Shown here piece by piece: positions 12,587-58,821 of a stretch of 64,000 nt of DNA. The first letter of the stretch is position 1. Every line of letters begins with the position of its first letter. This DNA is from Hysterium pulicare CBS 123377 (taxonomy: Eukaryota > Ascomycota > Dothideomycetes > Hysteriales > Hysteriaceae). The notes beneath the pieces were generated by a model, which saw only the letters and a program-made list of their open reading frames with translations, did not search any database and was not told the origin of the DNA. The DNA is taken from NCBI GenBank assembly GCA_000467715.1, contig AJFK01000541.1, forward strand, positions 1 through 64,000, written 5' to 3'. The position numbers and the translations under genes were made by a program.

Positions 12587-14104
12587 ATGGCGTCCATCAA
12601 CGTTTTGCCAACTGAAATTATGGATAAGATTTTCGGCTACATATTCTATCCTTCCGACCAGCAGTCATTTAAGACAGCTACTGCAAAAGTTTCAAAGTTT
12701 GGCTTTGGTCAACATTTCGAGACTATTCAAATAATGATGCATCCATTAAGCATGAATTATTTGCTGCGGATATCCAAGACTCCAGAGTACGCGTGGCACG
12801 TGCATCACATCATCTTCGGAACTGAAAACCTCTCCAACCATGATTACTATACATATTTCTTCAAGACTTGGGATCCTCACATGGGATGGGTTGAAGATAA
12901 CCTATGGGACGAGCAGCCTAACAAGAAGAAGGAGTTCATGACCTTGTTGCACGAGCAAAAGGAGATGCACCGGATGGGAGATGACGTGCGCATTCTCGTC
13001 GACGTTATATCTCGATTTCCAAACCTGGAGGACATCTTAATTCGCCCAAAGGCACCTAAGGTCTACGACTATAAGGAATACTTAACGGACCTTGACGGGG
13101 TTGACAGCGACTACGATCATGAGAACGACTCAAAGGACGAGGACGATGAACTCTATGCTATTGATTACAACTTTCGGGAACACCAGCTTGAATGGCATTT
13201 ACCACATCAGCTATTCAACCCGGCGCGCTTCGAGAGCTGGGGTTTACAGCAGCTTGAGCGCCGGACCGGTAGAAGAATTCCGGAAATGCTTCGAAACCAA
13301 GAAACCCGTATCTACGGCACAATCGACAAGGTTCTCGAAGAACTAAAGCTTTCACGGGTCAAGTTATTCTTAGATACCGTGAAATCGGAAGAGCCACTTA
13401 CGGCTACGTGGGAAGTCAAAACAACCACCAAACCAAGTGATCCACTATATCGAGCGCGAGGTTTGAAATTGCAAATGGAGATTGAAGGCTCCACTGTCCA
13501 TCCCAATTATAATATTATTGGGCCTGAGGACAGCCGCGACATCGAAGAAGTTTGCTTTCGAAGAGCTTACGACTATGGAGGTCTATCTGACTTTGTAGGC
13601 CTTATTCAAACGCCCTTCCGAAACCTACGACGACTCCAGTTCATTCGTGTGGAACTTCACCTATCTACCCTTTCCCATTTTCTGCAAAGACAAGCTTGGG
13701 AGGCACCCGGTCTCTCAGTCATCACTATACAGGATTACTGTTACGCGTGGTCTCATCCCCATGCCTTGTTCACCGAGGTCTTGGAAGTTTTATTTCACAT
13801 GGGTCAGCTACAAGAACTCAACTTGAGCCACATCGGCGAGGAATGCGGAACGCCTAAAATCGCCGAAGATACAGTTCTAATAGAACGTGAAGATTTTTCT
13901 TATCCAGAACTCGACCCACGATATTCTACGGCGGAGTGGAAGGGTGCAGAGGTTAGACTGGGGCTGCATTCTGTGCTTGGAGATTACGGTACGGTTACAT
14001 TTTACCATATTGATTCTCCAGGAACGTATCCGCGGCTGACAGTAATAGACTTCTCCAAGGCAAATGATTTTGTGGAGAGCTGTAGGCCATGTTTGGGGAA
14101 GTAG
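12587..14104 (+). CDS. F-box-like family protein, intact copy (505 aa)
   Basis: Single-exon gene. The N-terminus has an F-box-like core (LPTEIMDKIFGYI, residues 6-18) where F-box proteins bind Skp1. It is followed by the family blocks 'FETIQIMMHPLS' (about 44-55), 'IIFGTENL', 'FPNLEDI', an acidic insert (about 165-190), 'SWGLQQLERRTG', and a C-terminal 'YSTAEWKGAEVRLGLHSVL'. F-box proteins usually serve as substrate receptors of SCF ubiquitin ligases; the substrate of this family is unknown. The start at 12587 is chosen over an upstream in-frame extension because it lies 90 bp after a TATA element and gives the family N-terminus MASxNxLPTEI. It is the only intact member of the 12-22 kb cluster. 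F-box assignment rests on a short motif, so 'F-box-like' is the safest label. Confidence 0.8.
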   Translation: MASINVLPTEIMDKIFGYIFYPSDQQSFKTATAKVSKFGFGQHFETIQIMMHPLSMNYLLRISKTPEYAWHVHHIIFGTENLSNHDYYTYFFKTWDPHMGWVEDNLWDEQPNKKKEFMTLLHEQKEMHRMGDDVRILVDVISRFPNLEDILIRPKAPKVYDYKEYLTDLDGVDSDYDHENDSKDEDDELYAIDYNFREHQLEWHLPHQLFNPARFESWGLQQLERRTGRRIPEMLRNQETRIYGTIDKVLEELKLSRVKLFLDTVKSEEPLTATWEVKTTTKPSDPLYRARGLKLQMEIEGSTVHPNYNIIGPEDSRDIEEVCFRRAYDYGGLSDFVGLIQTPFRNLRRLQFIRVELHLSTLSHFLQRQAWEAPGLSVITIQDYCYAWSHPHALFTEVLEVLFHMGQLQELNLSHIGEECGTPKIAEDTVLIEREDFSYPELDPRYSTAEWKGAEVRLGLHSVLGDYGTVTFYHIDSPGTYPRLTVIDFSKANDFVESCRPCLGK

Positions 14105-14544
14105 GGGCTTGAACTTACTTCATGGCAGATAGATGCTGTAGCTGTAGATTCACAATGAGGTTTCTATGGTTTGGTGGGAGGGTGGAAAAGCCGGCATTCA
14201 TATATCGGCTTATGGAGGAAAGGAGCCTACGGTACTGTGATCATCCTAAATACTAGATTCAGTATGCTTACGATCCTGTTAGACACTTAGTTGAAAAATA
14301 CTTCACCTTCCTATTATTGAGTGTTGACCGTTCATCAATTCAGAACCGTCATTGTGGTAATGTCGACTCCTTCCACGTGATTAAACAGGGAGGCGAGGAT
14401 TATTCATTCACCCATTGGATTATAAAGTGATTTCAGAACGCATGTCTTTTCACCATATAAACACCTCGACTACTCTGGATTTACTTTCCTCGGCTTATTC
14501 CACCTCCAGTCGCCCACCACCAGTGTCCACTACCACCCGCAACA
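14105..14544. promoter_or_regulatory. Intergenic with duplicated F-box-like promoter
   Basis: 3' flank of the intact F-box-like gene, then a copy of its promoter: TATTCATTCACCCATTGG at 14401, TATAAACACCTC at 14456, and a CT-rich leader to the ATG at 14545. A CACGTG lies at about 14376. Confidence 0.55.
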
Positions 14545-14601
14545 ATGGCTTCATTCAACGACCTCTCTACAGAGATAATCGATAACATCTTTGATCATAT
14601 C

Positions 14602-14703
14602 TGTTGAAAGTAGCTTAGCCAGTGGCCAATGCGGACCTCGGTTGGCGTATAAAACCCCTGAATGCGCGTCCAACCTTTCTCTCTTCTTCAATTCACTTCA
14701 ACA
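14602..14703 (+). repeat. 5' LTR of TRIM (102 bp)
   Basis: Direct repeat identical base for base to 14957-15058. It contains a TATAAAA at 14648-14654 that could act as LTR promoter. Ends are TG and CA with inverted tips TGTTGAA/TTCAACA. Confidence 0.9.
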
Positions 14704-14715
14704 GGTTATGAGCCC
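14704..14715 (+). other. Primer-binding site of TRIM
   Basis: GGTTATGAGCCC follows the 5' LTR with no spacer and is complementary to the anticodon-loop segment of initiator tRNA-Met (GGGCUCAUAACC in fungi, from memory). This internal-tRNA priming is typical of the copia lineage. Confidence 0.65.
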
Positions 14716-14750
14716 GGGTAGCGCTCTTATATCTCCTCCCCTTATACAAA

Positions 14751-14912
14751 CTAAGGGCTAGGCTATAGAGCCATTCACTACCGCATACAAAGAGCAAAGG
14801 GCCTAAGAGCCAGGCCATAGAGCTATTTACTGCCGCATACAAAGAGCGAAGGGCCTAAGAGCCAGGCCGTAGAGCCACTTACTACCGCATACCAAAGAGC
14901 GAAGAGTAGGGC
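14751..14912 (+). repeat. 52-bp tandem repeats inside TRIM
   Basis: Roughly three imperfect units with a period of 52 bp, seen from CCGCATAC at 14781, 14833 and 14885. Each unit carries GGGCCTAAGAGCCAGGCC-type palindromic bases and a CCGCATAC(A/C)AAAGAGC core. They fill most of the internal region. Confidence 0.75.
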
Positions 14913-14948
14913 TATCAACCTCAATGAATTAAGGCCACCTCCTAATCT

Positions 14949-14956
14949 AGGGGGAG
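14949..14956 (+). other. Polypurine tract of TRIM
   Basis: AGGGGGAG lies immediately before the 3' LTR, the position where plus-strand priming occurs in LTR elements. Confidence 0.65.
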
Positions 14957-15058
14957 TGTTGAAAGTAGCTTAGCCAGTGGCCAATGCGGACCTCGGTTGG
15001 CGTATAAAACCCCTGAATGCGCGTCCAACCTTTCTCTCTTCTTCAATTCACTTCAACA
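14957..15058 (+). repeat. 3' LTR of TRIM (102 bp)
   Basis: Identical to the 5' LTR at 14602-14703. The host F-box-like gene resumes directly after it. Confidence 0.9.
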
Positions 15059-16485
15059 ATATTGAGTTCGCTTGCGACAAGTGATCCTTTCGCCTGGCCA
15101 CTTCCAAACTCTCGAAATTCGCGTTCGGCCAGTACTTTGAGACAGTTTCGGTGATGCTACACCCCCTAAGCCTGGATTATCTCGTCAAAGTATCGCTTGA
15201 GCCAAAATTTGCGCACCATGTAAAGCATATAGTCATTGGGGTGGAGACTTTATGGAACATCGAAGATTCTGCACGATCTAGTCGCCGCCCTTGGAATAAC
15301 GCAAAGGAGTTTTTTGAGCCACTGTGGGCAGAACACCCGGCGAAGAAAGGTGCATTCGAAAGCTTGTTCAAGAACCAGGAGGTTATGCGGGAAACGGAGG
15401 GTGATGTGCGGGTTCTAATCGAAGCAATACCTCGATTTCCCAATCTCGAAGGCATCTTCCTAGTTTCCGACATTCACCACTACTATACCAGCAGACTCTC
15501 TTACGCTAAGGAACTTGAGGAAAGAGAGTTGGATATTGATTCGGACGATGACGATGATAACGCAGCTGAAGACGATGCGGTTAATGTTGAGTTGACCTAC
15601 CCATATCGATACCCCAATCGTTGCTGGAGTTGGGGTTTAAACCAAATCTTTCGACGAACTGGAATCGACATTTCGCACTACCAGGAACCCCAATATTGTC
15701 CTGCATCTCGGCTTTGTAGCACAACTACCAAGGTCCTTACGGGATTGAATTTTACAAATTTCAAAACGTCTTGGTATCCTGGTGAACCAGGAGCAGCAGT
15801 CACCTACGTTTCGGAGGTCAGGAGTAGATTCATACTCGGTCATCCACTCTATAACCCTCAAAAATTTACGGTAAAAGTGCAGCTCGACAGAATAATTGCA
15901 AATCAAATGCTTTGTACTGCACAAGCTCGTGAAACTGAGGAACTCGACATCCGATGCACATGGGGATATGTTCACGATGCGCAGCCTTTGAGAGGTCCAG
16001 TAGCGTTCAAGAACTTACGTAAATTCTGTCTCGTTCGGTGTCGCATTTACAGTCAGGATATCTTTCGTTTCTTAGAGAAGAGTACGAACGAGGCGTCTCT
16101 CCGTAGCGTCACTATACGATACTGTCGCTTCTATGGTCAGGGTGAAGGTTATGTTCCCTGGACAGAGATTTTTCTTATCCTCCACGCAATCAGCTTAGAG
16201 GAGCTAAACCTCAGCCACGTCCAAGAACCTGACGCGGAATTTAGAATCGTGAGTGATCCTATAATCATTCCAACATGTTCAGATCATGCGCCAATCTTGA
16301 AGCTTCCTCCGCAGTATTCGACAGCCGAATGGAAAGGACCACAGATTCAGAGAGGACTTCATAGCGTCATTCACAGGCTGAGAACAGTGGGATTGTGTGC
16401 AGAAGACTCGCATATTTGGATGGAATGGGGTCCAGTAACCGATTTATCTCTAGCCAACGACGCAGTTGCTGGTATGATTTCGTAA

Positions 16486-16869
16486 GAGGGTGTCGATGGA
16501 TTTTAGTAGCCATGTTCTCGGAGATGTTCATGGAACTATCAGCAGGGCTAGACAAGGGTAACTATTCAGACTATATGGAGCTTGTGTGGTCATTGAATCC
16601 TATTAAGTGTATTTTAACTATGGACTTTTTCACAACGACAACACTTTTGATTGCTCTTTAGCAAGGCGTTAGTCCCGGAGACTATGAGTAGGCGAAGAAG
16701 TGATTCAGTTCGTGTGAATTAGTAGAAATGTGCGGAAAGCCGGGCCTGCAGACATCAAAGAAGATATCACCTTGCGTTTCCCTTTAGCGATTAGTAAATA
16801 ATTTCACAGTATTTTCCTACCCCACAGACTAGATTACAAAATGTGACGAGTTGAAGGCCTGAATCAGAG
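16486..16869. other. Intergenic, no gene seen
   Basis: 3' flank of the split pseudogene and upstream DNA of the next fragment. No F-box half of the next copy could be recognised here. Confidence 0.5.
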
Positions 16870-17772
16870 TGGTCATGGACACGGTTCAGTTCAGGACAGT
16901 CGAACCATCAATTCCGCCGCATTTTGTAGCTGGGGCTTGAAGCAGATCGTGCGCCGAAGAGGTCCGAACTTTGACCGGGACAGGATTTTAGACCGCTTCA
17001 AATATGCATACGGTACCATTCGCAAGGTTTTCGGTGAATTTGGGCTAATAAGGTTGACGTTGCACTTGAGCTCCCGCGACTATAGTAACTTTGAGTTTCT
17101 TGCAACTGGAGAGATGGAAAATGCGGTCACTTCTGACAAATCTGTACACCATCTCCGACGCATCAAGTTACAAGTCGCGGTCGACAAATACTCATCTAAT
17201 GGTAACGACATTCTTTTCACGGCCCGCGATGGTCAACAAGTTCGGGAGTTTGTTTCCCATAGAGCAAAACTTCATTTCACTGTTACTTGGAACCAACCTT
17301 CGCGGGGGTTGCATCAATTCGAGAACTTGCAGAAACTCGTATTGAACGAGGTGTATCACAACGATTATTTCTTCTGCCATTTCTTGAGGAAATGCTTTAA
17401 ACTGCTGCGTAGCACCACGATGAGCCATTTCTTACTATTGCCTATGGGGACAACGAAGAGCCGGAGGAAGGGATCTGGAGGAGACCTATGTGCGTCCTTC
17501 GTAGAATGACTCAATTGTAAGAGTTGGATCTAGATCATATCTATGAGACCTCTAGGGAGACTGATCTATGTGTCCAATTTGGACAACACTCGATCAATAC
17601 CTTAACCAGTAGTTTAGGTAACTTGGTCCCGGATCCCAAGTATACAAAGACGACCTGGAAGCGCGCCGAGATACCTAGAGGGTTAGAGTTTATACGTGAG
17701 GGCTACACGCGTGTACTATGTTGGGGTTTGCTTAGTGATGGACAGGAAACTGAGTTGGTGGTCAACTTATAG
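16870..17772 (+). pseudogene. 5'-truncated F-box-like family fragment
   Basis: Only the second half of the family is recognisable. A long frame (about 16937-17509) contains SWGLKQIVRRRG, YGTIRKVFGEFGLIRLTLHL, HLRRIKLQVAVDKY and FENLQKLVLNEVYHNDYFFCHFL, which align with the intact copy (SWGLQQLERRTG, YGTIDKVLEELKLSRVKLFL, FRNLRRLQFIRVELHL). After a stop, a second frame (about 17524-17772) has the family tail PKYTKTTWKRAEIPRGLEFI. The F-box and HPLS parts are missing upstream. This is an old, decayed copy in the same orientation as its neighbours. Confidence 0.65.
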
Positions 17773-19258
17773 GCGGCGAATGAGGAAGTGTTCAGGTATG
17801 AGACAGTGAAAGGTACCAGGTGAAAATGAACCACTAGTAACCTATTGGGCCGAAACCGGCCGAATGATATTCAATACTCATGAGTATGGCACGCTTGAGT
17901 CGACTGTCGGAACATGTAATCCAGAACCAAACATCAGTAGCAAAATGTGATCCCCGGCTATATTAATTCCACACTATTCTTCTTGAAGAAATCATGGCTT
18001 TATATTTCAACTTTGGTAGAGCGGATATAGCAGATACTAGGGGAGTAACCTCTTTGATTATGAGTAATCGGCACAAGGGTAAAGTTTGGCTAATTCGCAT
18101 AGGTGGGACCCACCGTGAAACGCAGTGCGTACTTGGCCGTATGACATGTCTCTTAGACCTTCAGTCCTCATCATTCCTCAATAATTTTCGCCCCGGTCTT
18201 GAGGTGATCCACACACAAGCTACATCGATTCACTCATCTACTTTTTGATGACGCTCATCGATATCCACCTATCAAAATAACTTCTGCTTCGTCCGAATAA
18301 TTTGCACCACCTGCCAACTCTGCCGTGGGCATGAGTAGGGTTAATGATGCTGTCACACGGGCAAAGCGAGGTAGCTGGCTAAACCACGAAGATGGCCGAT
18401 AGAGTTGTAAGGCCTGACTGTACTATTTAGTAAGTTTGGACGGACTATTAGTGGTATGGCAAGCGTTAAAGATATCACCGCTACAATAGATAGAGGATTT
18501 TAGGCTCACAAGATCATATTTTCTGCCGTCACGTTATAGAGTGTAGGTAACTATGCATGAGAGCAGCGATTGGATCCACTTTAACAAACTAAAACGCTGA
18601 ACAAAAAAGACAAATACCGTAGTTGCTCGAACCCTAGACCTTCAAAAAGTTCGGAGACCGCAGCCTCCTATGAAACCCTCGAAGTTTATCACCGATGGTC
18701 TCTCTTACGCCTGATGTGCCGATGAGTTTCCTGGATTTCCTGGATTTCCTGGATTGCCTGATTTGCTTCTCAAGTCTGATGAAGCGCCGATTTTTGAAAA
18801 TTTCCTGTATGTGCCTGATTAAGAGAGACCACCGAGCCAACAGTGCGCTGTTGACAAGTAATTGGGAAAACTAAACGGTATTTAAAGGTGAGAGCTGAAA
18901 AGACTAACTCATTGAATGCGGTATGTCGGCACTTGCCGCACGTGAAAGAGTAAATGGATACGAATGTGGCCGTGCACTATATTCACTGTACAAAGGGTCT
19001 CGAGTTGAGACACGGAAGTGAAAAGCCACGACTAAAGCTGAATCACCTTCTGCTACTCTGGATTCAATTCACAGCCTATGAAGTTATACACTTTTCGCTG
19101 CCAAATGGCGCACGTGTAGTTGATTGACTACTTTCATCCCCGAACGAGCATTTCTTGAGCTACAAAGGCGCGCTTCCCAGTAACTTTAACCCCACCTTCA
19201 TTTTGCACAACTAACTACCTACTTTCTTTGCTCGCTCACTAGACCACCAAAAGCAGAT
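17773..19258. other. Gene-poor spacer with small repeats
   Basis: No gene seen over 1.5 kb. It contains a short 9-bp tandem array (CTGGATTTC-like, 18731-18766) between two imperfect inverted arms: CGATGGTCTCTCTTA at about 18693 and the inverted partner TAAGAGAGACCACCG at about 18820. Near 19050 TGCTACTCTGGATT resembles the post-TATA block of the copy at 14456 and may be a promoter remnant of the next F-box-like copy. Confidence 0.45.
18731..18766 (+). repeat. 9-bp tandem repeat
   Basis: CTGGATTTC occurs twice in a row, followed by the variants CTGGATTGC and CTGATTTGC. Confidence 0.7.
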
Positions 19259-20215
19259 ATGGCAGCATTCAGCGACCTACCGACTGAAGTTGTCGACAAG
19301 ATTCTCGGCAACCTCGATAACAAAGATAAATGTTCCTTCCGGCTTGTGTCCAGAAAGATCTCGAAATTTGCATTCGGAGGATAATTTGAGACCGTTCGGG
19401 TTATGCGCCATCCATTAAGTCTCAATCATCTATTGGAAATCGCCAATATTCCAGAATATGCTCGAAACGTCAAGCATCTGGTCATTGGCGCGGAGTTCCT
19501 CATAACACGTCTCGACATTCTATTATGCCATGGCCATGACACCAAGAGTATTGCCGAATACGCCAATTGGGTGCTGAAACGTCTCGAGGTCTCGCTATTA
19601 TTTCAGGAGGCCAGGACGGAAAACCGACCTTTGGAAGACCTTTGGGATGAGTATCCGCTCATGAAGGGAGAGTTGAATAAGATCTTGCACGAGGAATGTG
19701 AGATGTGGCGCACTGAATCGGATGTTGATACTCTTATCGCAGCGCTACCTTCATTTCCAAATCTGGAAACCATTCACTTCGACGAGTACGAACCGGAAAT
19801 GCGGGATAGGAAAAGCTGGGGAGCGGGCCAAATTGAACGGCGTACTGGAATACTCATGGCATGGGCAGAGCCAGCAGAAAAGAGACAAGACGACAGCCCA
19901 AACCAAATGCATGCATATTGGAAAGTGGAGAAAGCTCTGAGCGAATTAGGCTTCACACAATTCACATCCTACCTGAAGAATACGCATCAAGGGCAGTATA
20001 CGATGGCTATATGGGAGTATAGGGCTACATCTGAATCAAGTAGCTTTCCTCGCGGTCGTGTTCTGAAACTCACGATGAATACGGAAATCTCGATTTCTCA
20101 CGCAGGCTACAAATTTCCTGAAGGCTCCCGCATTGAAAGAATATGGGGGCCATATTATAAACCTTTTAATAAGCTTTGTGAAGCGAGATTTAAGCGCGGG
20201 CCGTTACTCCACTAG
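19259..20215 (+). pseudogene. F-box-like family pseudogene, one early stop, 3' truncated
   Basis: The N-terminus MAAFSDLPTEVVDKILGNL starts at 19259 and continues DKCSFRLVSRKISKFAFGG to an in-frame TAA at 19382, at the site where other copies read GQ(Y/H)FET. The same frame then continues open (FETVRVMRHPLSLNHLLEI, VKHLVIGAEFL, FPNLETI, SWGAGQIERRTG) to 20215. The C-terminal third with the W.G...GL block is absent or beyond recognition; bases after 20215 still show RRYSQGILDCL in the same frame past the stop, resembling the block RIYSQDIFRFL. So one nonsense change lies in an otherwise well-kept N-terminal two thirds. An unusual intron across the stop cannot be excluded, but no donor and acceptor fit. 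Confidence 0.7.
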
Positions 20216-21104
20216 GAAGAGAAACTGTCACGGGTCAGGAGGTATAGCCAAGGCATATTAGACTGTTTGATATGTGTGGCGGGAATCATAGCTCAAGGGC
20301 CTTCTTGATAGCTGAGATATAACATGTAAGCCTCTATACTCCACTTGTTTACCGAAAAATGTGAAATGCTATTGCAAAAGTCTGCTTCAATGAATGCTTT
20401 GATTTGCCTGGTGTGAAGACTTACAGCTAGGAACGTCACATCAATGGTTGTGGGGTTGTGGCAGAATAGCAGGCCCTTGACGAAGGGTATCTAGTATTAC
20501 ACAGAATTAGTTTGTCTATTTGAAAGAATGACATACCGTGTAGCTGACACTGTGATTCTGAGAGTCATTAACTTTAATTCTAAGAACGAGACGCATACTT
20601 CTCTTCGGAACTTGACACATACCGTTATTTATCGAAGTGACTGATTCCCAACAGACCTACTATAGTATTCAGTTTTCATCTAAAAGCATTTTGCAATGGA
20701 GTCTAATATAATCACATCCCTGGTAGACTGGCTCATGATAGTTCTGGTAACATGAGCAAAGTAACTCTAAGGTATTGATAGTATCTACCATTCCAAAATA
20801 TGGATTGACGGCTTTCAAAGAAAAATACCACCAGCAAAACCTGCATGTTTATGGTCTCCATGTCCTCCATCACTTGAAACATGTGACGTTTACAAGATTT
20901 AAGCAAAGTTAATGCTTATAGGTGCGAGTATACAGTATATGAAGAAGAGTAATCAACAGCGTATGGGTCGGGTGTGGCTCACGGGTACTGTCTCACTACC
21001 TTCAAAAATGGGCAACAATTTGAGACACTCCATAGATACTCTATGTGGATTTAAGTAACGATACCCACGTTTCTACCACTTGTGACTCTACTAGACCCCT
21101 TTAC
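20216..21104. other. Spacer between opposed F-box-like remnants
   Basis: AT-rich DNA with no recognisable gene. It separates two convergently oriented family remnants. Confidence 0.5.
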
Positions 21105-22160
21105 TCACTGATTCGACTCATTTAATAGGTAAACGAGGTAGAGCTCCTCTAGATATTGAAGATTAAGTCCTCTCATACCCACCGAAATCTTCATTGATAT
21201 ATTTTCTTGAAATGGCACCACTTCAGTTTCACCACTAAACATCTCTCCACGAGGGAATCTGAACTTTGCCACGACATCGTTGGCCTGACTAAAGTTGATG
21301 GCTGCTCGGCTCCAGTGAAAGAATGTGGAGTAGTTCCGAAGTAGAGCATCAAGACCTTCGCCGATCTCGGCTCCCTTCCAATATGCCTTCGCATAACGGT
21401 CATCCTTTTCTCCATCGTAAGGAACAGTGGCGGAGAGATTAAGATCAGAAGTTTCTTTAAGCCACATAAGATCAAGCAATTCCAAGTGCTTGATTCTTCG
21501 AAAGATTCCGAGTATGGGCGGCCAAAAATTGGCACCTGATGCGAAGCAAAATTTTATAGAAATGATCCGCAGAGCAGAGATTGCTTCGTTAGAAGAAGAT
21601 GGGGACGTGTTAAGCCCAGAAACTTGCGATTGAATAAAGCGAACGAATCTTCCGTCCAGAGCGTAGAGGCCGAGGAGGCGAAGGCAAAGCAGATTTCGGA
21701 ACGGACCAATAGTGTTGAATATGTGATGTGAAGGTTCATAATTCGAGTCGCAGCCATGTACCGATAACTCTTCAATTTTGTCGGCATTCTTAGCTCTGCA
21801 GATTGCCTCTCGAAGTAAGTCGTCTCTATAGCAGAATTGAAAAAAAAAACTCTAATATATCCTGGACGATCTTTTGAGCTGGATGCGTCAAATGCAGGTT
21901 TTGTGCTCCAGGTTGCTAGGGATTGGTCATACAGAATTCCGGCATGTCTTGAGGCACCGGACAGTTTGAATTGAAACATCTGAAGACGCAATTTGACTAA
22001 GACATTCATAAGAGCCTTGTAAGTGAATGTTCCGCAGATAGTATGCTCTTGCCTCACTTTGCAGACCTTTCTCGTACCGATATCGAGTGGAGCCTTATTT
22101 CCCCTTACGATCCTGTCCCAGTACCAGTTGGTGATACGGTCGCCATAAGAAACATGTGAA
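21105..22160 (-). pseudogene. Inverted, 5'-truncated F-box-like family remnant
   Basis: Read on the minus strand, the middle and end of the family are present in at least two frames. The first part (about 22160-21720) has NWYWDRIV, CGTFTYKALMNVLVKLRLQMF, ATW and ELRMPTKLKSY. The second part, in another frame from about 21725, has PFRNLLCLRLLGL, AISALRIISIKFCF, HLELLDLMWL and the family tail AKAYWKGAEIGEGLDALL, then INFSQANDVV. The F-box half was not found upstream. The frame change plus the missing 5' part make it a pseudogene. It is the only member of the first cluster on the minus strand, so a local inversion or inverted duplication occurred. Confidence 0.6.
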
Positions 22161-23083
22161 GCTCCTTAAAGAGATGGTGGATCTCTCGGCCGCTAACGAA
22201 GCTGTGTCGTTCATGAGGCGGCAGACCTTGATCTCTGGATGGGTACTCACAGTCTGTTTATGAATAGAACCGTGCAAGACCGAGTTGATTGAAGGTTGGG
22301 GGTTCTTGATAATACCGAATAGAACTTAGGAAGGGTGAATAGTGACTGCAGCCTCAGGCACGGCTATGCCGAAAGCTTTCCTAATCTGGCAACGCAGCAA
22401 GGAACTGTTGATTTTCCGAGGCCGCGTGCCTTGTCTAGAGAAGAGAGGTAGAAGTAGAGAAGGGGTAGGTGAGATGAAGCATACAGTACCGCAACCTAGA
22501 GTTCCAGAGCGGCGCTGAACGTCAGCTGGATCTTCGACTCCTATACGTGTGACGTGTCTCTTGTGGTCTCTTTCCCGCTACCTGAATAAATATGGATTGA
22601 TTCGCATAGTTCAAACTCCTTACTGATCCACCTTTCCACTTAAAGGTGGTGCTTACGTACCGAAGAATACATCTCGTAGTATTACCTCCGCTTGTTGAAG
22701 TAATCCTTTCGTAACACTCCCTGCAAGGACGAAGACGGACGAGTATTTCAACTCTACTATTCGTCCTTTCGCACCTCCGTGGGCACTCCGCGGTGTTAGG
22801 AAATGCTATATCCACCGCTTCTTACGCCAAACTAAAACATTGAATCCTCCCATCGCGGGTATCTCCCGATCGAGCTTAGCTTGCTCAGACTGAGCCTATC
22901 ACAAACGAAGCGAGGTCAGCTACCACTTGATGGTTTAAGCTTGTTGAGACGACCAGTGCTGTGCCATCTTGTGTATAAATTCATCAGGTTTCGCTTTCTG
23001 AATATGTCGCTACTTCAATCCATCTTCTCCCTCTAAATCTTCTTCCCATTGACACTTCTCACGAACGAAACTAAGAAACAGTC
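22161..23083. other. Intergenic region upstream of hydrolase
   Basis: No gene recognised. The last 100 bases hold the promoter and leader of the hydrolase gene at 23084 (GTGTATAAATTCAT at about 22971 is a TATA candidate about 110 bp before the ATG). Confidence 0.5.
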
Positions 23084-26280: not shown

Positions 26281-27625
26281 TCATCGCGCCACAATATAAC
26301 CTTTATCAGCATCCTCATGAGACACACTCCACTTCACTTCTCTTTTGATAATCATCTCCTGACTCCCGTCGCTCGTAAAGCTGCTCACTTCTCCACCTCG
26401 CCGCTCGGGATGATAGATATTCGTCTCAGTAGCCCTACCATCAGGGTGCCTATCATGGGTTTCGCCACCCTTCACACTCCCCACATGACTCCGAGAGACA
26501 GTGCTACCGTTACCCCCCGTCCTCTGGCGTGCTTTACCCCCGACTCTCGAAGTCACGGTCCCGTTTGGGGCGCTGGCGTTCTGAAGAGATTGTAGTGGAT
26601 AGCTGCCGTTGTGGTAGCCGCGCGATCCATACCCGTAACCGTCTAAATCGAGCTCCATGCCGAATCCAGAGTTGAAAGATCGCATGAAGGCTTTTAGGGT
26701 CGGGATTGTGGCGGCTAGAAGGGACCAGAAGAGCTCGAATTGTTGGTATACGAGTGCGGATATCATGACCTTGGAGACGTTGCTGCTGTCTAGGTATGTA
26801 TGGACGAAGTGGAGGTGAGCTACGGCGAAGCCTATGACTGGTAGTCGGAACCCGAATGCCACGACGACTTGCATCTTGATGTATGGCTTCATCTGTATAG
26901 GCCAGACGAAGAGCACTGGTAGGATGATCAGGAGAAACTCGATGAAGACGTCAAGTGCAGCGATAATGCGCCATCGCGTCAGTTGCCCTCCGCACTGGCG
27001 CGTTGAAGCATCTTGAATGAAGGTGGAAGGACTGCATGCGACGGAAGTAGCGATGATGGATCCAATGCCCCACACTACCGTGAGAACGAGAGTGCCGTTA
27101 CATAGAAACCATGAATTACGAGTGACTTTAATGTCGCGCGTGAAGAGTCGCAACATCAGTGCCACAACGGAGGCTTTCGCCACGGTGAGGGCAAGAATGA
27201 GGAAGATTTGCGCGGTGAATGTCGCCTATGTCCAAAATTAGTCTGTGTCCCTGACTCGAAGTGGTGCTACGTGGTACATACCTTTCCGGCAGCCGTGATT
27301 TGCGAAGCATCAAGGAGATGCTCTGATTTGCCTAATCCATGCTTCATGGCTAAGAATAAAGGAATAACCTCGCCCAACTGTAGAATCTACGTGAATGTAA
27401 GATGATGCTCGTTGTCGATGTGGTCTTTGGATTACTTACCGTCGCCACGGCTGCTGTTACATCGTCTGGACCGTATAAATTCCATTTTATATGTAGTCGC
27501 ACAATGAGAACGAGAGAAGAGTAAACCAAACAAAGTATGGAGGCTATCCAGAGGTATCCAGAATCGTTGTCGTCGGTAACGAGAGCGAAGCGATGCTCAA
27601 TAGGTGTAGGTGTCGGAGAGGCCAT
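26281..27625 (-). CDS. Fungal rhodopsin-domain integral membrane protein (411 aa, 3 exons)
   Basis: Minus-strand exons 27625-27440, 27386-27282 and 27225-26281, with introns starting GTAAGT and GTATGT. About seven hydrophobic segments are present, with family landmarks: ALVTDDNDSGYLWIASILCL (first segment), a LYGPDD acidic loop, GLGKS after the third segment, and a WGIGSIIATSVACSP-type region. These are typical of the fungal 'rhodopsin domain' family related to PTH11-like proteins without a CFEM domain; such proteins sit in the plasma membrane and are suspected receptors. The cytosolic tail (about 290-411) is Gly/Ser-rich with many Arg. The ATG at 27625 was chosen because the frame's upstream extension lacks an ATG. 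It is divergent from the permease gene across 1.7 kb. Confidence 0.8.
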
Positions 27626-31535: not shown

Positions 31536-33746
31536 ACTTCAAGATCTGGTTTATCGCCGGCAAGAAAAGGCAACCGGCATCTCGGTGAGTGTATCGCAAG
31601 AGTTGAGGACTTCGTGAAGGACTTTCTTGCTAGCAAAGATGTTGGCGCGACAAAGCCGGTTGAAAGAGAGCCACGGCAAGACATACGTTCGAACTCCGAT
31701 GCCCTAAAAGCTCGCTCAAATGATTCAGCCCCCTCATCAATTCGAGCTCCTCTCACGCCTGCAGAAGTACGCATACCACCCATACTTACATTGAATATGT
31801 TCCCTAATTGTCACTTAGAGTCTTGGAGAGTCCGCTCCAAATTCATCACTCCTCACAACGGACTCGCAAGATGTATCAGGTCAAGCCGAGACCGAAACAG
31901 CCCTTCATCACTTATTTGCAGCCTTTCCAGCTGAAGAGGATGCCAAAATCCTGCTCAGAGAAAGCTCTAGACCGTCGGTTTACTACAAGTTAATCAACAC
32001 TCAGCCGCATAGCAAGCTGACACCCGAGTCGCTTGCGGCACCGTACCCTATAGCTGAGCTCCCTGGTCCCAACACTCACCCGGTCATTTTGGCCAAACTT
32101 ATGCTCATGTTTGCAATCACTCTACAGATTCCGTGCAGAGAAAAGTTCCTCAGCCTTTCTGAACCACAGAGCGTAATAGTGCGTCGTTTGATGACCGCTG
32201 CTACGACATGGGCAACGACCAAGGAGGAGATGCACGGAACGGTCGAGAGTCTGATGTGCATCATCCTAGAGGGTGTTTACGAGACAAATTGTGGCAATCT
32301 TCGACGGGCTTGGGTTGTTTATCGCAGGGCAATGACAGTCGCCCAGTTGATGGGCCTTCACCGCTCTCCCATGCCACTACTCAAACACATAGACCCAGAG
32401 CATGATGCTAAGCCAGAGTTCCTGTGGTTCCGCATTGTTTACATGGACCGCTATCTCAGCTTGCTGCTCGGTCTACCCCAGGGCACATCTGATAAGAGTA
32501 TGGGAACGATGTCGGTTTTGCGGCACGAACCACCCCTGGGCAAATTCGAGCGACTACTCACAGTCATTGCATCTCGCATCTTGGAACGCAACGAAAGTGC
32601 CTTTGCCGCGAGCGAAATCAAAACAACCCAATCTATCGACTGAGAGTGTCGAAGAGCATGCCGGCAAGCTTTTGGCGCCCGGCGAATTTTCAAAATCTCA
32701 CCTCAGGATCGCCGGATACCCTCTTGGAGACAATACGCCTGGCAGCCTAGATCTACTACTATGGCCTGTTGCTTCAGCTCCATCTGCCGTATACGATGCG
32801 AATTGGCGACAATACCGAGCACGAGTACTCCAATATCACGTGCGTCAATGCTGGCCGGGAGATAACGACGCGCTTTATTGCCTACCGAAGCTTCAACCCT
32901 GTGTCGTCCTGCTCGCGACCCGTGGACTTCTTTGCTCTCTTGCCGGCGATGACGCTCCTGCTTGCTCATCTCGACGCTCATCATCATCGAGAGGCGACCA
33001 ACTCCCTAGCTCACCAGCGCTTGAGTGACCGTGCCATGCTAGATCAGGCCCTAGAGAGAATGGACGTAATCACTAACGTTAACGAGGACGTAATAACAGA
33101 AAAGAGTGCAACATTGATCCGACGGTTACTCCACATCGAGGCGGATGCACCTGAGGGAAGCAGTTACACCAACAGGAGCGTAAGAGAAGATGACGATGCG
33201 CAGGAGGGCAAGGAGGAAGGCGAAGAGTTTTGTTTGCATATCCCGTACCTCGGCGTCATCAATATTGCTCGCCATGGTCCCATTTCTCGAGAGCCATCGC
33301 TCGGGAATGTGGCATCTCGACTGCATCAGACCTCCCATGTCGAGTTCCCACAGAGAGAGACATTCGCCGCGTCCAACGATGCGTTCGCGTCTCTACCTCA
33401 TGGGTCGCTTACAGATGAACAGCCGCTTAGCCATCTGCACGGCATGGCCCAAGGCTCCACGTTTTCGGGGGATATGCCGGCATCGGAACGTTCGAACGCG
33501 CAGTTCCAAGCACCCTGGTATGAGCAGTCCATGCTACAATACCCTAGCTCTAACCACGACAACATGGCTCTGCAGCCGCATGTGGTACTTCCTCCCATCG
33601 CGGCCGGCGTCAACGACTGGGCTTTCCAGGGCGTCGACATGGCGTTCTTCGACAGCTTGATGAGAGGAACGCCTTGCGTGGATGCTGCCGGGTTAGAGCA
33701 GCAGTGGATCGAGGATTCGCTAGGGATGGATAGTGGCCTTGTGTAA
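31536..33746 (+). pseudogene. Broken fungal-specific transcription factor (fungal_trans middle domain)
   Basis: A regulator of the Zn2Cys6 class without a visible zinc cluster. A first segment after a TCTAG acceptor reads RHLGECIARVEDFVKDFLAS to a donor at 31767. The next exon from 31819 carries ALHHLFAAFP, then the fungal_trans middle homology region to about 32640 (VESLMCIILEGVYETNCGNLRRAWV, AMTVAQLMGLHR, FLWFRIVYMDRYLSLLLGLP). There the frame is lost (TGA at 32641) and continues shifted, SFWRPANFQNL to a TAG at about 32748, then LLLQLHLPYTMRIGDNTEHEYS to 33746 with a Gln/Ser-rich tail. One frameshift, at least one nonsense codon and a missing N-terminal zinc cluster make loss of function likely. 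It lies 400 bp after the permease gene. Confidence 0.7.
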
Positions 33747-34877: not shown

Positions 34878-36344
34878 CTTGGGTTTGCTGGCGTGTAGGG
34901 TGGAAGATGTGGTGAGCTGGTGGTCATGGCCGTATGTTACCTTATATCCGTCGAAGGGTCCGCTGCTTCAAAGTTGGGTATACTAGAATATAGTGGTATC
35001 AATATGCTACTGTACTTTAGATAGGCCATGATGTACGGAACCAATCCTCTTCCAGCCTATAGACCTCTTTGCGGTTAAAATCCCAGTTTTAGAAACGACT
35101 GTGGTAAGTTCAAGCAGTGCAAGGATGAACTGCCGAAATCGTGGGGAACCCTTAGAATATCTCGTCAGTCATAAGGGACACGATAGATTAATCCGATATA
35201 TGCAAGTCTTAAACCCCTGCAAGCTCAACCGCTCCCGCTCCTTCACGGCACTCACCTTCACCAACGACGGTGAAAGCGATAGCCGAACCGCGCTATGGCC
35301 ATCAAAGCCCTGCACCTCGAAAGTTGACACTTGGTCTCAGGAATCAACACTTTTTGCTGCGTTACCGGATTAGGAAGGTTTTGGGCTCGACTCTGCCTGA
35401 GGCTGCAGTCGTGCACTACCTCCACCCTGCATCCTCAGAGACTGGAAATACCAATGTCTTTCTCCAGACATGTTCTCCTTCGATTCATTCTCCCAAAAGC
35501 TTTTCTCCAGGACCTTGAGCCCTATAGATTGAGGTTTTCAGCCTCCACCAAAGAAGACTCCCGCCATGGCCACCAACACTCCACTCCGTCTCTGTGCAAC
35601 TTCTTGTATTTTTGCACTCCCACATGCTGTCATCGTACTCCCACTGGAAAACGAAACATACCGCAGCACGCTCTCCTTTTGGATCGCAGAAATTGGCCGA
35701 CGATGAACTTAAGCGTACATCGTACCTAGCTCCTCCTTCTCCTGCCCCCATCCGCTTCTCACCACTTTAATCTATAACTTAAAGCCAGACATTATACTTC
35801 GTTCAGAGGTTGCTTGGCGAACATATTTATCGGATATGCGAACGCGTCGTCATCGTGAGTCGTGGTATTTCCTTCTCTGACAAGGTTGGCAGGAAGACAA
35901 TGAGAGAACTGCTGGATGACATGATGGTTGAGGCGAAGGAGATAGGGGTGTAGCAGCCGTGGGTGTATCCGAAGTATGCGGCGGAGTGGCGGGGGCTGGT
36001 GGGAGTTTTTGGGATAGAGCGTAGGGGGAGCATGGGGAGCGGAAGTACGGGATGTGGTGCCGGGGGTGTTGAGGTTTTGTTTTTAGGATATGCGTGTAAA
36101 GGATGCTGTGCAGGATTAGTGGAGCGGGAGCGGTCTAAATAGTCAGCCAGGAGATGAAATAGATAGTGGAGTCTGGACAGTATTGCGAATAGAAAGAGGG
36201 AAGATGAAGAAAAAGAGGAAGCCACCTATTAATGCTACATTTTCACGAGCACGAATTCCTCTACTCTGCTCTATAATTACATGCCGCCTACCACTGTTTC
36301 CAAAGTCCACCTTTTAGACTTCGACCTTACATCCCGAAACCGTA
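34878..36344. other. Intergenic with coding-like remnant
   Basis: The AA9 promoter side, then mostly non-coding DNA. On the plus strand a 48-codon segment at 35807-35953 following a TTCAG acceptor reads GEHIYRICERVVIVSRG and KTMRELLDDMMVEAKEIGV and ends in TAG; it looks protein-like and may be the last exon of a lost gene whose 5' part (ATG near 35564) is not convincing. No family recognised. Confidence 0.3.
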
Positions 36345-37508
36345 TCAAATGTATGTAACCGCCAAAGTAACAGCCGAGCAATTCACCGGCACCACGTCCG
36401 CTATCTGCAATTGCAACTGATCGGGACACACAAAAAATATACTCGTACTCTGGTCCGTACAATGCAACGCGCCGCCCTCGATATCACAAGTAGCAGCCAC
36501 GCCCCCAAGCTCCGCAATCTGATCGGCAGTATTGAAAAAGACGGTTTCGGAAGTGTATCCAGCGTCGATGTTTGCGATTTCGTCCTCAAACCCGAGAAGA
36601 TGGCACGAATCGTCGAAGGTGAAACTTGTTGCTTCGCTCTCGTCGCTTCGGGTGACGATGTCGTTGCCGCCTGTGTTCGATGAGAAGGCGTAGTAACCGT
36701 CGTCCGAGGTGCCGCTGTTCGTGTATTCTAGGATGAAGGTGGGCTGGCAGCCTCCTGGATTACAGGTGGTTGCTGCGCAGGTCGGAGTGGGTAGCGTGAA
36801 GGTGCTCGAGGTGCTCGATGTTTTTGTTGACTTTGTTGTGGTCGTTTTCGTTGTCGAGCTTGTGGTAGTTTTGGTAGGCACTGTCTTTGACGAGCTCTTC
36901 GTAGTTTTTGTACTAGAGATTGATTTGGTGCTGGAGATTGATTTGGTACTGGAGGATTTGGTGCTGGAAGGTTTTGTGCTGGAGGGTTTCGTACTGGAGG
37001 GTTTCGTACTGGAGGATTTCGTACTGGAAGATTTCGTACTGGTAGGTTTTGTACTGGAACTCGATTTTGCACTGGTGCTTGATTTTGTGCTCGTGCTTGT
37101 TCTACTCTGAGAAAGGTTAGTAGATCAATCTCATCAACTCAACGGGATACTCACCAAAGTCACAGTCGCACATGGTTTTTGAGTCTCAATACAAGAGCAT
37201 ACCGTTTTATGGATTGCTGCAGGCTGAGACTCGAAACTAGACCACACCGTTGCGAGAGAGTCTACAGCAGTGGTTGTCGACGCGATTACCGAAGCGGATG
37301 TTGTCACAGCGCGCCTATGCTTGCCAGCTACGGTTGTAGTGCAAGCTCGTAGAGGGTGATGAGTAGAACACCAGCTCTGCGCTGGCGGGTATGCTGACAG
37401 GGCTAAGAAGTCCTTGTATACACTGCTCGAGCATGCTGGCCCGGATACTGCTATTGAAGCGCCGAGGAGTGCCGCAGAGACGATGCAGAGATGGAAGAGA
37501 AACATCAT
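36345..37508 (-). CDS. Secreted Ser/Thr-rich two-domain protein (371 aa, 2 exons)
   Basis: Minus-strand exons 37508-37155 and 37106-36345, joined in phase 0 across a 48-bp intron with branch point CTAAC. Residues 1-20 form a signal peptide (MMFLFHLCIVSAALLGASIA). An N-terminal Cys-containing domain (about 25-118: ACSSSVYKDFLALSAYPPAQSWC, CTTTVAG, VCSC) is joined by a Ser/Thr/Lys-rich linker (about 119-215; SSTKP and SSTKS units) to a C-terminal Cys-containing domain of about 145 residues (CAATTCNPGGCQPTFILEY, DDSCHLLGFEDEIANI, ATCDIEGGALHC, FFVCPDQLQLQIADVVPVNC). The linker should be heavily O-glycosylated. The layout is that of fungal wall or extracellular proteins; no catalytic motif is seen and I know no name for the domains. 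Confidence 0.7.
36913..37053 (+). repeat. Coding minisatellite (18-bp and 15-bp units)
   Basis: Two 18-bp units (CTGGAGATTGATTTGGTR) are followed by seven 15-bp units (CTGGARGRTTTYGTR), 141 bp in total. Read antisense they encode the SSTK(S/P) linker of the secreted protein. All units are multiples of three, so copy changes keep the frame. Confidence 0.85.
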
Positions 37509-53677: not shown

Positions 53678-55033
53678 ATGCCTACGCTCAACAATCTGCC
53701 CGTCGAATTAGTACAGCACATCTGCGAATATGTCGAGCCCCGAGATATTAGAAGCCTTCGCCAGGTCGATCGCAACATGGCCAACAAAACCTCGTACTCC
53801 TTTTCGATGCTATTTGATTCCGTGAAGATCATGCTGCATCCACTTAGTCTCAGACTAATGCAGCAAATTCTGGACCGTGACGATCTCGCATCGAGGATCA
53901 AAACACTTATCATCGGGACGGACTCCCTCGATTCGCTTGAACCGGAGGTGGCATCGAGATGTGGCAAAGACAATGGTCATGCTACATACCGGCGCTACCA
54001 AAAACTCAAGGAAGAAGTTCACAAAAAGAAGAAAAAGAACCTACCGGACCAGAGCGACATTGCTACGCTGTTACAGATTCTACGGCGCCTTCCTAGACTA
54101 GAAATCGTCCGTATTGAAGACCGGCCGTACGACGACGAGAATGGGCAGTTCAGACCCTGTATCGGCAATTCACACCTTTTCGAGCTGATTGGTGTTGATT
54201 TCAGCTGGCATGGTCCATATGATATTGAAGATTGGAACAAGCAGTATGGTGTTGGCTGCGGTCTCGTCTGGAAAACTGCATTTGAGTCTTTGCACCTATT
54301 CAACGAGAAGCTAGATCGACGTATCAAGGTAGATCTTGTTGTGCGCTCTATACGTGTCGTTAATAAAACGCAACGGTGGTTTTTAGGATATCGGTTCAGC
54401 CCATACGCTCCCCGCCATTTTCATCTACCTGTGCGACGTGTCGATATTCACTCGGAGATGAATATATGGACTAATGAATTTCTGCGCACGATTCGAAAAG
54501 TACAAACCGACGAATTGAGGATCTGGAACGCTACACAGTCTAACCGTGTTAGAGCACTAAGTTCACGGCATTCGGGGGTTGTTTATCCATTCCCTAACCT
54601 CAAATGCCTCGAACTAAAGAACTGCGAACTAGATGTGCCACGACAATTGCTTCGTGCTCACCGAGAAACTCTACAGACCATTTGTCTCAAAGGTGTCTAT
54701 GTTAATTCAAGTTGGTCGGCTGCACTCAATGAGATGATCCAAATGCCAAAGTTGACTAAATTGATCCTGGAAGGACTTATGTGCCCGGCAAACGCGCCTG
54801 CTGACGGCGACCGTCGACGAGGGCTGGCCTGCCATAAAGTTGAGTGGTATGGCCGAGAAAATATCAAGAGGGCTCTGGAGAAGCTTGTGTGGCTACGCCC
54901 TGTCGTATACTACTCGATACATAAGGATATGCTAGAATTCTACGATGCAGAGATCGCGTATGGGCGTCAACCGAACGAGATCCAATTGTGTACCCCCCCT
55001 TGGCCTAATCATCATCCGGAATCAGAGATGTGA
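53678..55033 (+). CDS. F-box-like family protein (451 aa), second cluster
   Basis: Single-exon gene. The N-terminal F-box-like core is NLPVELVQHICEYVEPRDIR (residues 5-24). Family blocks follow: SYSFSMLFDSVKIMLHPLSL (47-66), 'RIKTLIIGTDSLDSL', 'LPRLEIVRIED', 'IGVDFSWHGPY', 'PNLKCLELKNCEL' (an LRR-like strand-turn) and the tail 'VEWYGRENIKRALEKL'. The likely role is an SCF substrate adaptor by analogy with F-box proteins; the target is unknown. It starts a cluster of four related genes on the plus strand that is much better preserved than the cluster at 12-22 kb. Start chosen because MPTLNNLPVELV matches the start of the paralogues. Confidence 0.78.
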   Translation: MPTLNNLPVELVQHICEYVEPRDIRSLRQVDRNMANKTSYSFSMLFDSVKIMLHPLSLRLMQQILDRDDLASRIKTLIIGTDSLDSLEPEVASRCGKDNGHATYRRYQKLKEEVHKKKKKNLPDQSDIATLLQILRRLPRLEIVRIEDRPYDDENGQFRPCIGNSHLFELIGVDFSWHGPYDIEDWNKQYGVGCGLVWKTAFESLHLFNEKLDRRIKVDLVVRSIRVVNKTQRWFLGYRFSPYAPRHFHLPVRRVDIHSEMNIWTNEFLRTIRKVQTDELRIWNATQSNRVRALSSRHSGVVYPFPNLKCLELKNCELDVPRQLLRAHRETLQTICLKGVYVNSSWSAALNEMIQMPKLTKLILEGLMCPANAPADGDRRRGLACHKVEWYGRENIKRALEKLVWLRPVVYYSIHKDMLEFYDAEIAYGRQPNEIQLCTPPWPNHHPESEM

Positions 55034-55438
55034 GTTATGGGTTATTGAGCTGTCTGAATACGGCTTAGTTAGTGGCTTTGAATATATATGAATCTACTCC
55101 GAACTGTTTTGCTAGCATACGATGTTTGGCCCCTCGATACTGCATCACGTAGTTATGTACACTAAATCCACTCCTAACGAGCGCAATGTCGGAATTCGAT
55201 CATATAGTGCAATCCTGCGGTCATTCACCATTGGGCTCATTTTCAAGGGACTGAGGTATACATTGTGAATTGCACAATGCAGCACGCACTAACTTATTCG
55301 CCGCGAGTGACTTTGGGTCACTCCACTGAATGAAACCACTACGAATAAATCAAATATAATCTTACTGTACATTTGTCCCCAGAGCTACCACTACAGAATC
55401 TCCTCAGCCCACAACCCCAGTTTCCGATTCACACCACC
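55034..55438. other. Intergenic region
   Basis: Short AT-rich spacer with the promoter of the next family member. No gene. Confidence 0.5.
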
Positions 55439-56731
55439 ATGCCTACCATCAAGGACTTACCGGCGGAGATTATCGACCAAGTCTGTGAGTCTGTCGGCAA
55501 GGAAGGTGTACTCTCCCTTCGTCTTGTGAACCGCGAGCTCTCTCGGAATTTAGCTTACTCCTTCTCGCTACTTTTTGAAACAACTAAGATTATGGTACAC
55601 CCTCTCAGTTTTGAGATTTTACGGACCCTCTTAGAACGATATGATGTGGCATCGAAGATCAAAACGCTAATCATCGGAACCGAATACCTGGACGAGTTGC
55701 GTACTCGCAATGCTTCTCTTAGTTGGTTTTACTATGATTCACGGCGCCGGAACTTCCGGTAGCTTGTGAAACAGCAGAGAGAGCTAGAAAGAACGATTAT
55801 TAAGGGCCTTCTGTTCCATACATTGACTAAATTTTCCAATCTCGAAGTGGTACGGATTGAAGACCATCCGTGGAAGGGTACGGATGGCATTTGTGGCCAG
55901 TATCGTCCCTCTCTCGGCAGCGCAGATATCAAGCGGCTCACCGGTGTTGACTTCCGACTCGCCCCGAATAACAATGAAGAGTTCAACATTAAGTCGATTA
56001 TAACGCGGGAGAAAATATTTACGATGGTCTTCAAAGGCCTACATGATCTCTTTTTCCAAAACGGCAAGAAATTAAAGCTAGAGCTTGCGATATGGTCTAT
56101 AGAAGCGGGGGAAGGTGAGTCAAGAAGGTGGGAACTTCATCCACCTTTTCGTGCATCTAAGCTGGATGATGAGTGGATAAAGCTTCATCGATTAGAGATC
56201 CATGCTCCAATGAATTGCCTATGGGCAAGGAACGTAATACGTACCCTGCGTGGCAGCGAACTCGAGGTCTTGCGTTTGGTCAACCCAGCAGACCAGTTGG
56301 TTCCGATAGGCACGATATTGCCAGGCGCTCCGCCAGTCCTACTATATCCGTATCTAAAACACATCCATTTGGGGAACGCACGAGTAGAGAGGCGTAGACT
56401 CGTGTCCTTCCTGACTGCTCACGGGCAAATATTGGAGGAGATAAATCTGTTCGACCTCGAATTGAGAAGTGGCATATGGCTTCAATGCCTTAGGGAAGTG
56501 CAGCAAATGCCTAAGTTGAAGGAGGTTACCTTGAAGAACCTCATGCAGTCCTTCCATCATGGACTTCATAATACGCCAAATGCACGAACGGCAGTTTCTT
56601 GGTCTGGACATTCCATGATTTCTCAAGGACTACGTCTATTTCTGGGAAGATGTAGAACTGTGGGACCGAACCGATTGGGCTGCGCCACATTAGATTTCAG
56701 GGGAGCAACTAGAGAAGCCATGAACATGTAA
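55439..56731 (+). pseudogene. F-box-like family gene with one in-frame TAG
   Basis: One continuous frame of 431 codons apart from a single TAG at 55760-55762. N-terminus MPTIKDLPAEIIDQVCESVG, then SFSLLFETTKIMVHPLSF, SKIKTLIIGTEYLDEL, up to RRRNFR, stop, then LVKQQRELERTIIKGLLFHT, LEVVRIEDHPW, LTGVDFRL, LKHIHLGNARVE, and the tail SWSGHSMISQGLRLFL. At the stop the paralogue at 57151 reads NFRNLMQEQ, so the TAG replaces one residue with no frame change. No splice pair spans it. It is either a very young pseudogene, an allele-specific nonsense change, or read-through (context TAG C). The rest shows no decay. Confidence 0.7.
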
Positions 56732-57150
56732 CTGAATGCAGCCAATTTTGAGGGCTTCGTTGTCTAGAACACTACTAGGCTATGTAGAGCAAAGTTACTA
56801 ATGTATTACTACTCTTAAAGTCCCCTTGTGTTGTCTTAGGCTTTAATGAAATGCTTAGCAAAACCATGACTTTATGCTTCAGTCAACACTGTTACCGTGA
56901 GACACCAAGGTGCAACCAGAATTCGGACTTAGGCGTCGTCTATATCCTCATACTAACCGTAATTTCATTTCACTTTTCTATAGTGGATCTGAGAATAGGC
57001 AACATAATTCACGAATAAGATGCCGATGGTGAATGTGAAAAAGACATAGCCAGTCGGATTCACTAAGTTTCAATGGCATGTAAACTTCCCTTTCTCCATA
57101 CTCTTCTGTCCGCCATTGACTCTGTTATCACTGCGAACAACTCATCAACT
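56732..57150. other. Intergenic region
   Basis: Spacer and promoter of the next family member; an in-frame extension upstream of 57151 (to 57073) lies in the leader. Confidence 0.5.
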
Positions 57151-58491: not shown

Positions 58492-58821
58492 GGCTGAGGT
58501 TATCGTACAGCGGGAATGCGAGAAGCTACGGAACTCAATGTACGGGAGCGTAGCCGAAAATATCATAGGATCACTTTCTGGAGTATGTAGGTGGAATGAT
58601 TGATGCGGTTAACGTGATCGCTAGGTGCTTCTCTCTTGCGAGAGCTTCACTGCAGACGATGTCTGAAAATCTCAAAAACCTGCCGTGGAGTCGTAGCTCC
58701 GTTAAGTCCAGTTGCCGGCTGCGAAAAGGCCATAGGTAGAGTCAGTCTCATTTAGGCAAGTATTTATCAAAATATCGAATAGCATGCCCAATTTGCATAG
58801 CCATGTCCTTTATTTCCTTAC
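58492..58821. other. Convergent 3' flanks
   Basis: Between the F-box-like gene and the P450 gene, which converge. No gene seen. Confidence 0.5.

Follow-up and report, generated by a model that had tools for sequence, protein, structure and literature searches.

Among the closest described counterparts of the short LTR element reported here are the fungal Helenus TRIMs (Kojima 2024, PMC10886601), in which, according to the available text, the primer-binding site (PBS) mostly matches a tRNA anticodon loop, with initiator tRNA-Met dominant, insertion is accompanied by 5-bp duplications, and the PBS resembles that of Copia elements; the fungal families tabulated in that text come from Basidiomycota only. 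Seven TRIMs related to Copia-1_CH are described from the ascomycete Cochliobolus heterostrophus, and the available part of that account gives its Copia LTRs as typically TG/CA-ended, as here, a likeness of description rather than of sequence alignment (PMC4112212); that part describes no PBS. In the portions of the literature available, TRIMs are also reported from Venturia and from Boletales. Among elements with coding capacity, the hemiviruses Ty5 and Drosophila copia are primed from the anticodon stem-loop of a fragmented host tRNA, which for Ty5 is initiator tRNA-Met, and half-tRNA priming of these elements has long been known (excerpts of PMC1181622 and PMC5371799). The first-pass annotation of the present locus had singled out half-tRNA priming in a fungal TRIM as worth documenting; it is already published, and, in the text of PMC10886601 from which we also take the definition of a TRIM, it dominates among fungal Helenus TRIMs.

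The locus lies in a 64,000-nt window (the whole stretch of DNA that was analysed), which is fungal by content since Pfam, run on 9 window proteins, placed Fung_rhodopsin in one (26281-27183) and Fungal_trans in one (32089-32643). The element measures 457 bp, with two 102-bp LTRs around a 253-bp interior, and its features and immediate surroundings are as follows.

12587-14104, + strand: F-box-like paralogue with an uninterrupted frame, serving as the empty-site reference within the window (ORF list; alignment)
14545-14601, + strand: first 19 codons of the F-box-like gene that the element interrupts, placed by alignment with the paralogue at 12587
14597-14601, no strand: very likely left target-site duplication, ATATC (sequence; 5-bp length backed by the paralogue fit)
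14602-14703, + strand: 5' LTR, 102 bp, TGTTGAA...TTCAACA (100% identity to 14957-15058; terminal inverted repeat)
14648-14653, + strand: TATAAA in the 5' LTR, LTR position 47, possible Pol II TATA box
14704-14715, + strand: PBS GGTTATGAGCCC, matching E. coli metZ and a published yeast tRNAi probe, with the same site in contigs L001 and L003
14751-14904, + strand: interior 52-bp tandem array, 2.9 copies (Tandem Repeats Finder; unit alignment)
14949-14956, + strand: polypurine tract (PPT) AGGGGGAG, adjoining the 3' LTR
14957-15058, + strand: 3' LTR, 102 bp, identical to the 5' LTR
15003-15008: TATAAA in the 3' LTR, same motif as the 5' LTR copy
15059-15063, no strand: very likely right target-site duplication, ATATT (sequence; paralogue fit)
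15064-16485, + strand: remainder of the same F-box-like gene, which reads in frame when 457 + 5 bp are skipped (ORF list)

The coordinates and anatomy given in the first-pass annotation, namely the LTRs, their TG/CA ends, the PBS, the PPT and the 253-bp interior, proved exact. The LTRs (14602-14703 vs 14957-15058) agree at 102 of 102 positions, and their termini, TGTTGAA and TTCAACA, form a perfect 7-bp terminal inverted repeat. No statistics are required for an exact repeat of 102 bp; the functional labels do call for them. The PBS directly follows the 5' LTR and is the sole exact occurrence of its 12-mer on either strand of the window; when up to two mismatches are allowed, 5 window matches are obtained against 3.86 expected by chance, and therefore only the exact, correctly placed site is meaningful. 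All plus-strand window positions were compared with the reverse complement of metZ from E. coli; a leading match of 13 nt, the longest, was found once, at the PBS, where it covers metZ positions 29-41 (CAT anticodon at 35), and the 3' (acceptor) end of metZ has no match to the PBS. The initiator tRNA references used were the annotated E. coli metZ and the yeast tRNAi probe oPA1732. The probe is stated in the available text of PMC11230868 to be specific for initiator Met-tRNA, and since it contains the element's PBS 12-mer, those 12 nt are shared by the initiator tRNA of yeast. The PBS thus matches the initiator tRNA-Met anticodon arm, as had been claimed from a first reading, over 13 nt in metZ and 12 nt in the yeast probe and, as in the hemivirus group, is complementary to that arm and not to the acceptor end. 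ARAGORN, run with bacterial settings, found no tRNA genes in the window. The PPT AGGGGGAG is an 8-nt purine run; such runs end at 637 of the 64,000 window positions, or about 1%. The primer of a published yeast III-L telomere probe, CGTCAACAGGTTATGAGCCCT, has the same CAACA|PBS junction as the element. We take Ty5-1 to be located at that probe site.

The LTR/PBS junction TTCAACAGGTTATGAGCCC, the query of the only scan of genome_contigs, was found there in three places (L001, CADCWO010000010.1; L002; and L003, VAZS01000336.1). Downstream of the junction, L001 and L003 have Ty1/copia gag-pol frames that are cut off by the contig end; L002 was rejected, as it resembles an ordinary bacterial gene region and no element was seen in it. 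Pfam identified gag-pre-integrase, Pol_BBD, SH3-like and RVT_2 domains in both L001 and L003 (RVT_2 at 2.1e-67 and 2.1e-77, respectively), and Retrotran_gag_2 and rve at E <= 0.001 in L003 only. Like the element, both contigs show a TGTTG...CAACA LTR, present singly and 119 and 199 bp long, respectively, with a TATA-like box, and the 21-nt junction TTCAACAGGTTATGAGCCCGG is identical in all three; unlike the element, both carry gag-pol, and their LTRs have no overall similarity to that of the element. Because the 19-nt junction was itself the search key, the independent points are the next two G's, the copia context and the PPT, this last in L001 only, where AGGGGGAG followed by TGTTG (13 nt) recurs letter for letter; it does not recur in L003. 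Besides the junction, no element match to L001 or L003 exceeds 16 nt. The regions concerned (L001 1-5746 and L003 1-4744) comprise one LTR plus repeated ends and lie in bins named cyanobacterium and alphaproteobacterium, respectively; both contigs are likely eukaryotic contamination of bacterial bins.

The LTRs, PBS, PPT and 5-bp duplication, together with the copia link provided by the same junction in two Ty1/copia gag-pol contigs, support the initial designation of a copia-type TRIM, and we regard the element as very probably a non-autonomous LTR retrotransposon of 457 bp, mobilized in trans by a half-tRNA-priming (hemivirus/Ty5) Ty1/copia element. Ty5 and copia carry gag-pol, whereas the element has no coding region, and the hemivirus arrangement of a gag-pol with integrase before reverse transcriptase is not found in it; having no coding capacity, it would be only a dependent of Ty1/copia and not a member by coding content.

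The element resembles Helenus in being short and protein-less, with an initiator tRNA-Met anticodon-loop primer and a 5-bp duplication. An assignment to Helenus (Pol III, TRIMp3), known from rusts and agarics, has in its favour the half-iMet primer of most fungal Helenus families, the same 5-bp duplication and a length, 457 bp, that falls within their range of 311-1263 bp (PMC10886601, in the available text), and the LTR does contain one loose A-box-like match. Helenus LTRs as described there, however, include a segment resembling a tRNA, complete with Pol III boxes, and none was found here by any of three routes: ARAGORN (bacterial settings) reported no tRNA, a lax Rfam scan of 14560-15100 gave no tRNA match, and the box search found neither a B box nor GGTTC in the LTR, which has TATAAA instead. 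We therefore reject a Helenus/Pol III identity, which we consider very improbable. The lax Rfam scan returned one weak microRNA match (14.7 bits vs a gathering score of 70), and Rfam at gathering scores had 0 matches in the window. The segment 14660-15040 gives no hint of a special RNA structure, folding no better than its shuffles (z 0.46; 70 of 100 shuffles folded at least as well), and a structured packaging RNA was rejected on this comparison.

The flanks ATATC and ATATT are identical at 4 of 5 letters, an agreement of at least four that is expected by chance at about 1.6% and is weak by itself. For an empty-site test, the flanks were joined without the element and without 0-24 further bases, and each translation was aligned to the 12587 paralogue. 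The best of the 25 duplication lengths was 5 bp, with a score of 238.5 as compared with 233.0 for 8 bp and 232.0 for 2 bp, and the 5-bp version aligned gap-free at the insertion point; the margin amounts to a single codon gained or lost, which fixes the length well, though not absolutely. Since the paralogue is matched best when 457 + 5 bp are omitted, we consider it very likely that the imperfect pair represents a genuine 5-bp target duplication, and the near-perfect duplication first proposed gains independent backing. Two points temper the TRIM reading at this site, namely that the duplication is imperfect (4/5) and that lengths of 8 and 2 bp score only a little lower against the paralogue. 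A non-mobile origin through local duplication or an assembly artefact, with chance TG/CA ends, would agree with a single visible copy at a locus known from the assembly alone, but the PBS, PPT, inverted repeat and 5-bp footprint sit exactly at the repeat edges, and we give such an origin next to no credence.

Insertion inside an F-box-like gene, another element of the first-pass annotation, is borne out by the alignment to the 12587 paralogue, in which 161 of 457 aligned residues are identical (reading from 15061). The element lies after codon 19 of the ancestral frame, which now stops at the element's second codon. The F-box label itself is indirect because, among these proteins, Pfam matches F-box families only in a more distant relative at 53678-55033 (F-box-like, 4.4e-05 and 23.6 bits, below the cut-off of 24.3; F-box, 0.00016 and 21.9 bits vs a cut-off of 20.5), which is tied to the 12587 paralogue by tblastn; at E <= 0.001, Pfam assigned no family to the gene's 3' part (15085-16485) or to its nearest paralogue. 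Searched by tblastn with the 12587 protein, the window shows two clusters of diverged F-box-like paralogues, 12587-21410 and 53678-63117, in which some matches are partial and one, 21410-21258, is on the other strand. The interrupted gene also has an in-frame TGA at 15082-15084, outside the element, and is then otherwise open to 16485; it decayed either before the insertion or since. A less probable idea is that this 3' part, which lacks the F-box and is otherwise open, with its first ATG after the stop at 15154, would now be driven by the TATA box of the 3' LTR.

The interior was described at the outset as non-coding, in agreement with a longest stop-free stretch of 53 codons when the entire element is read in six frames; inspection of these frames by eye showed nothing that resembled gag or pol, and the element is too broken to code. 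A feature absent from the earlier description is the 52-bp tandem array, which accounts for 154 of the 253 interior bases (2.9 copies, 88% matches; Tandem Repeats Finder). Units 1 and 2 are identical at 45 of 52 positions, and unit 3 agrees with units 1 and 2 at 36 and 38 of 52 in ungapped comparison, figures that a 1-bp insertion lowers. That the array units differ whereas the LTRs do not suggests that the interior predates the present insertion.

No second copy of the element is present within the 64,000-nt window, and none was found in viral_contigs (0, with two LTR pieces), in plasmids (0) or in G001, the genome of L001 (0), where an empty answer shows nothing. The missing second copy says little, since plasmids, viral_contigs and G001 are not fungal genome collections. 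Two 17-mer matches in viral_contigs, L004 (flanks and ORF list) and L005 (flanks alone), were rejected, as no element was seen there. If the element belonged to no amplified TRIM family and had arisen only once, from a full-length copia element by internal deletion at this site or shortly before a single insertion, this would account for the lack of a second copy in the window and these collections and for a resemblance to the copia contigs confined to the PBS and PPT ends. Such a derivative is nevertheless unlikely, given an interior that is mostly a diverged array, and so apparently older than its identical LTRs, and six frames in which no gag- or pol-like reading was seen; a TRIM mobilized in trans remains the preferred reading.

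The claim that the element is young is allowed by the identical LTRs and is poorly supported by them, as a 102-bp LTR dates badly. With 0 differences in 102 sites, the 95% upper age is about 14 My at the fungal rate of 1.05e-9 per site per year quoted in the available text of PMC5689174, and about 1.5 My at an illustrative rate of 1e-8. The one visible change falls in the 10 duplication bases and not in the 204 LTR bases, an outcome expected by chance at about 5%. Youth is mildly contradicted, because the duplication has already changed and the host-gene stop at 15082-15084 lies outside the element. With RIP as a candidate cause of the C/T difference in the duplication, the TpA/ApT index is high in the element (1.52 vs 0.73 in the window), but the second RIP index stays level (1.20 vs 1.22).

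Elsewhere in the window, 22344-22413 (+) and 35342-35410 (-) share about 70 bp at 80% identity in opposite orientation, both ending TGTTGATT, and are perhaps the remnant of another dispersed repeat. A separate tandem array at 36940-37058 has a 15-bp unit in 7.9 copies, with overlapping 18- and 30-bp period readings (Tandem Repeats Finder).

The putative mechanism for mobilization of this TRIM would begin with Pol II transcription from the LTR TATA box and entry of the element RNA into a copia particle, where initiator tRNA-Met, cleaved within its anticodon arm, would supply a 5' fragment to anneal to GGTTATGAGCCC and prime minus-strand DNA, and AGGGGGAG would prime plus-strand DNA. The integrase of a presumed copia helper, acting in trans, would then insert the product with a 5-bp duplication, in this case after codon 19 of the F-box-like gene.

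In the literature available, we found no canonical non-Helenus half-tRNA TRIM in ascomycetes; the element adds to a known type, and this absence is no claim of novelty. We propose tentatively, and with somewhat less than even confidence, that it represents a filamentous-fungal TRIM family not yet described, of Pol II rather than Helenus type, combining half-tRNA priming with a tandem-array interior. The element alters no principle. It provides a compact example, with all boundaries defined, of a TRIM that probably depends on copia, for which the empty-site check needs no second genome, and if the family is confirmed, an ordinary TATA-type LTR element, possibly from an ascomycete, would join the known fungal half-tRNA TRIMs.
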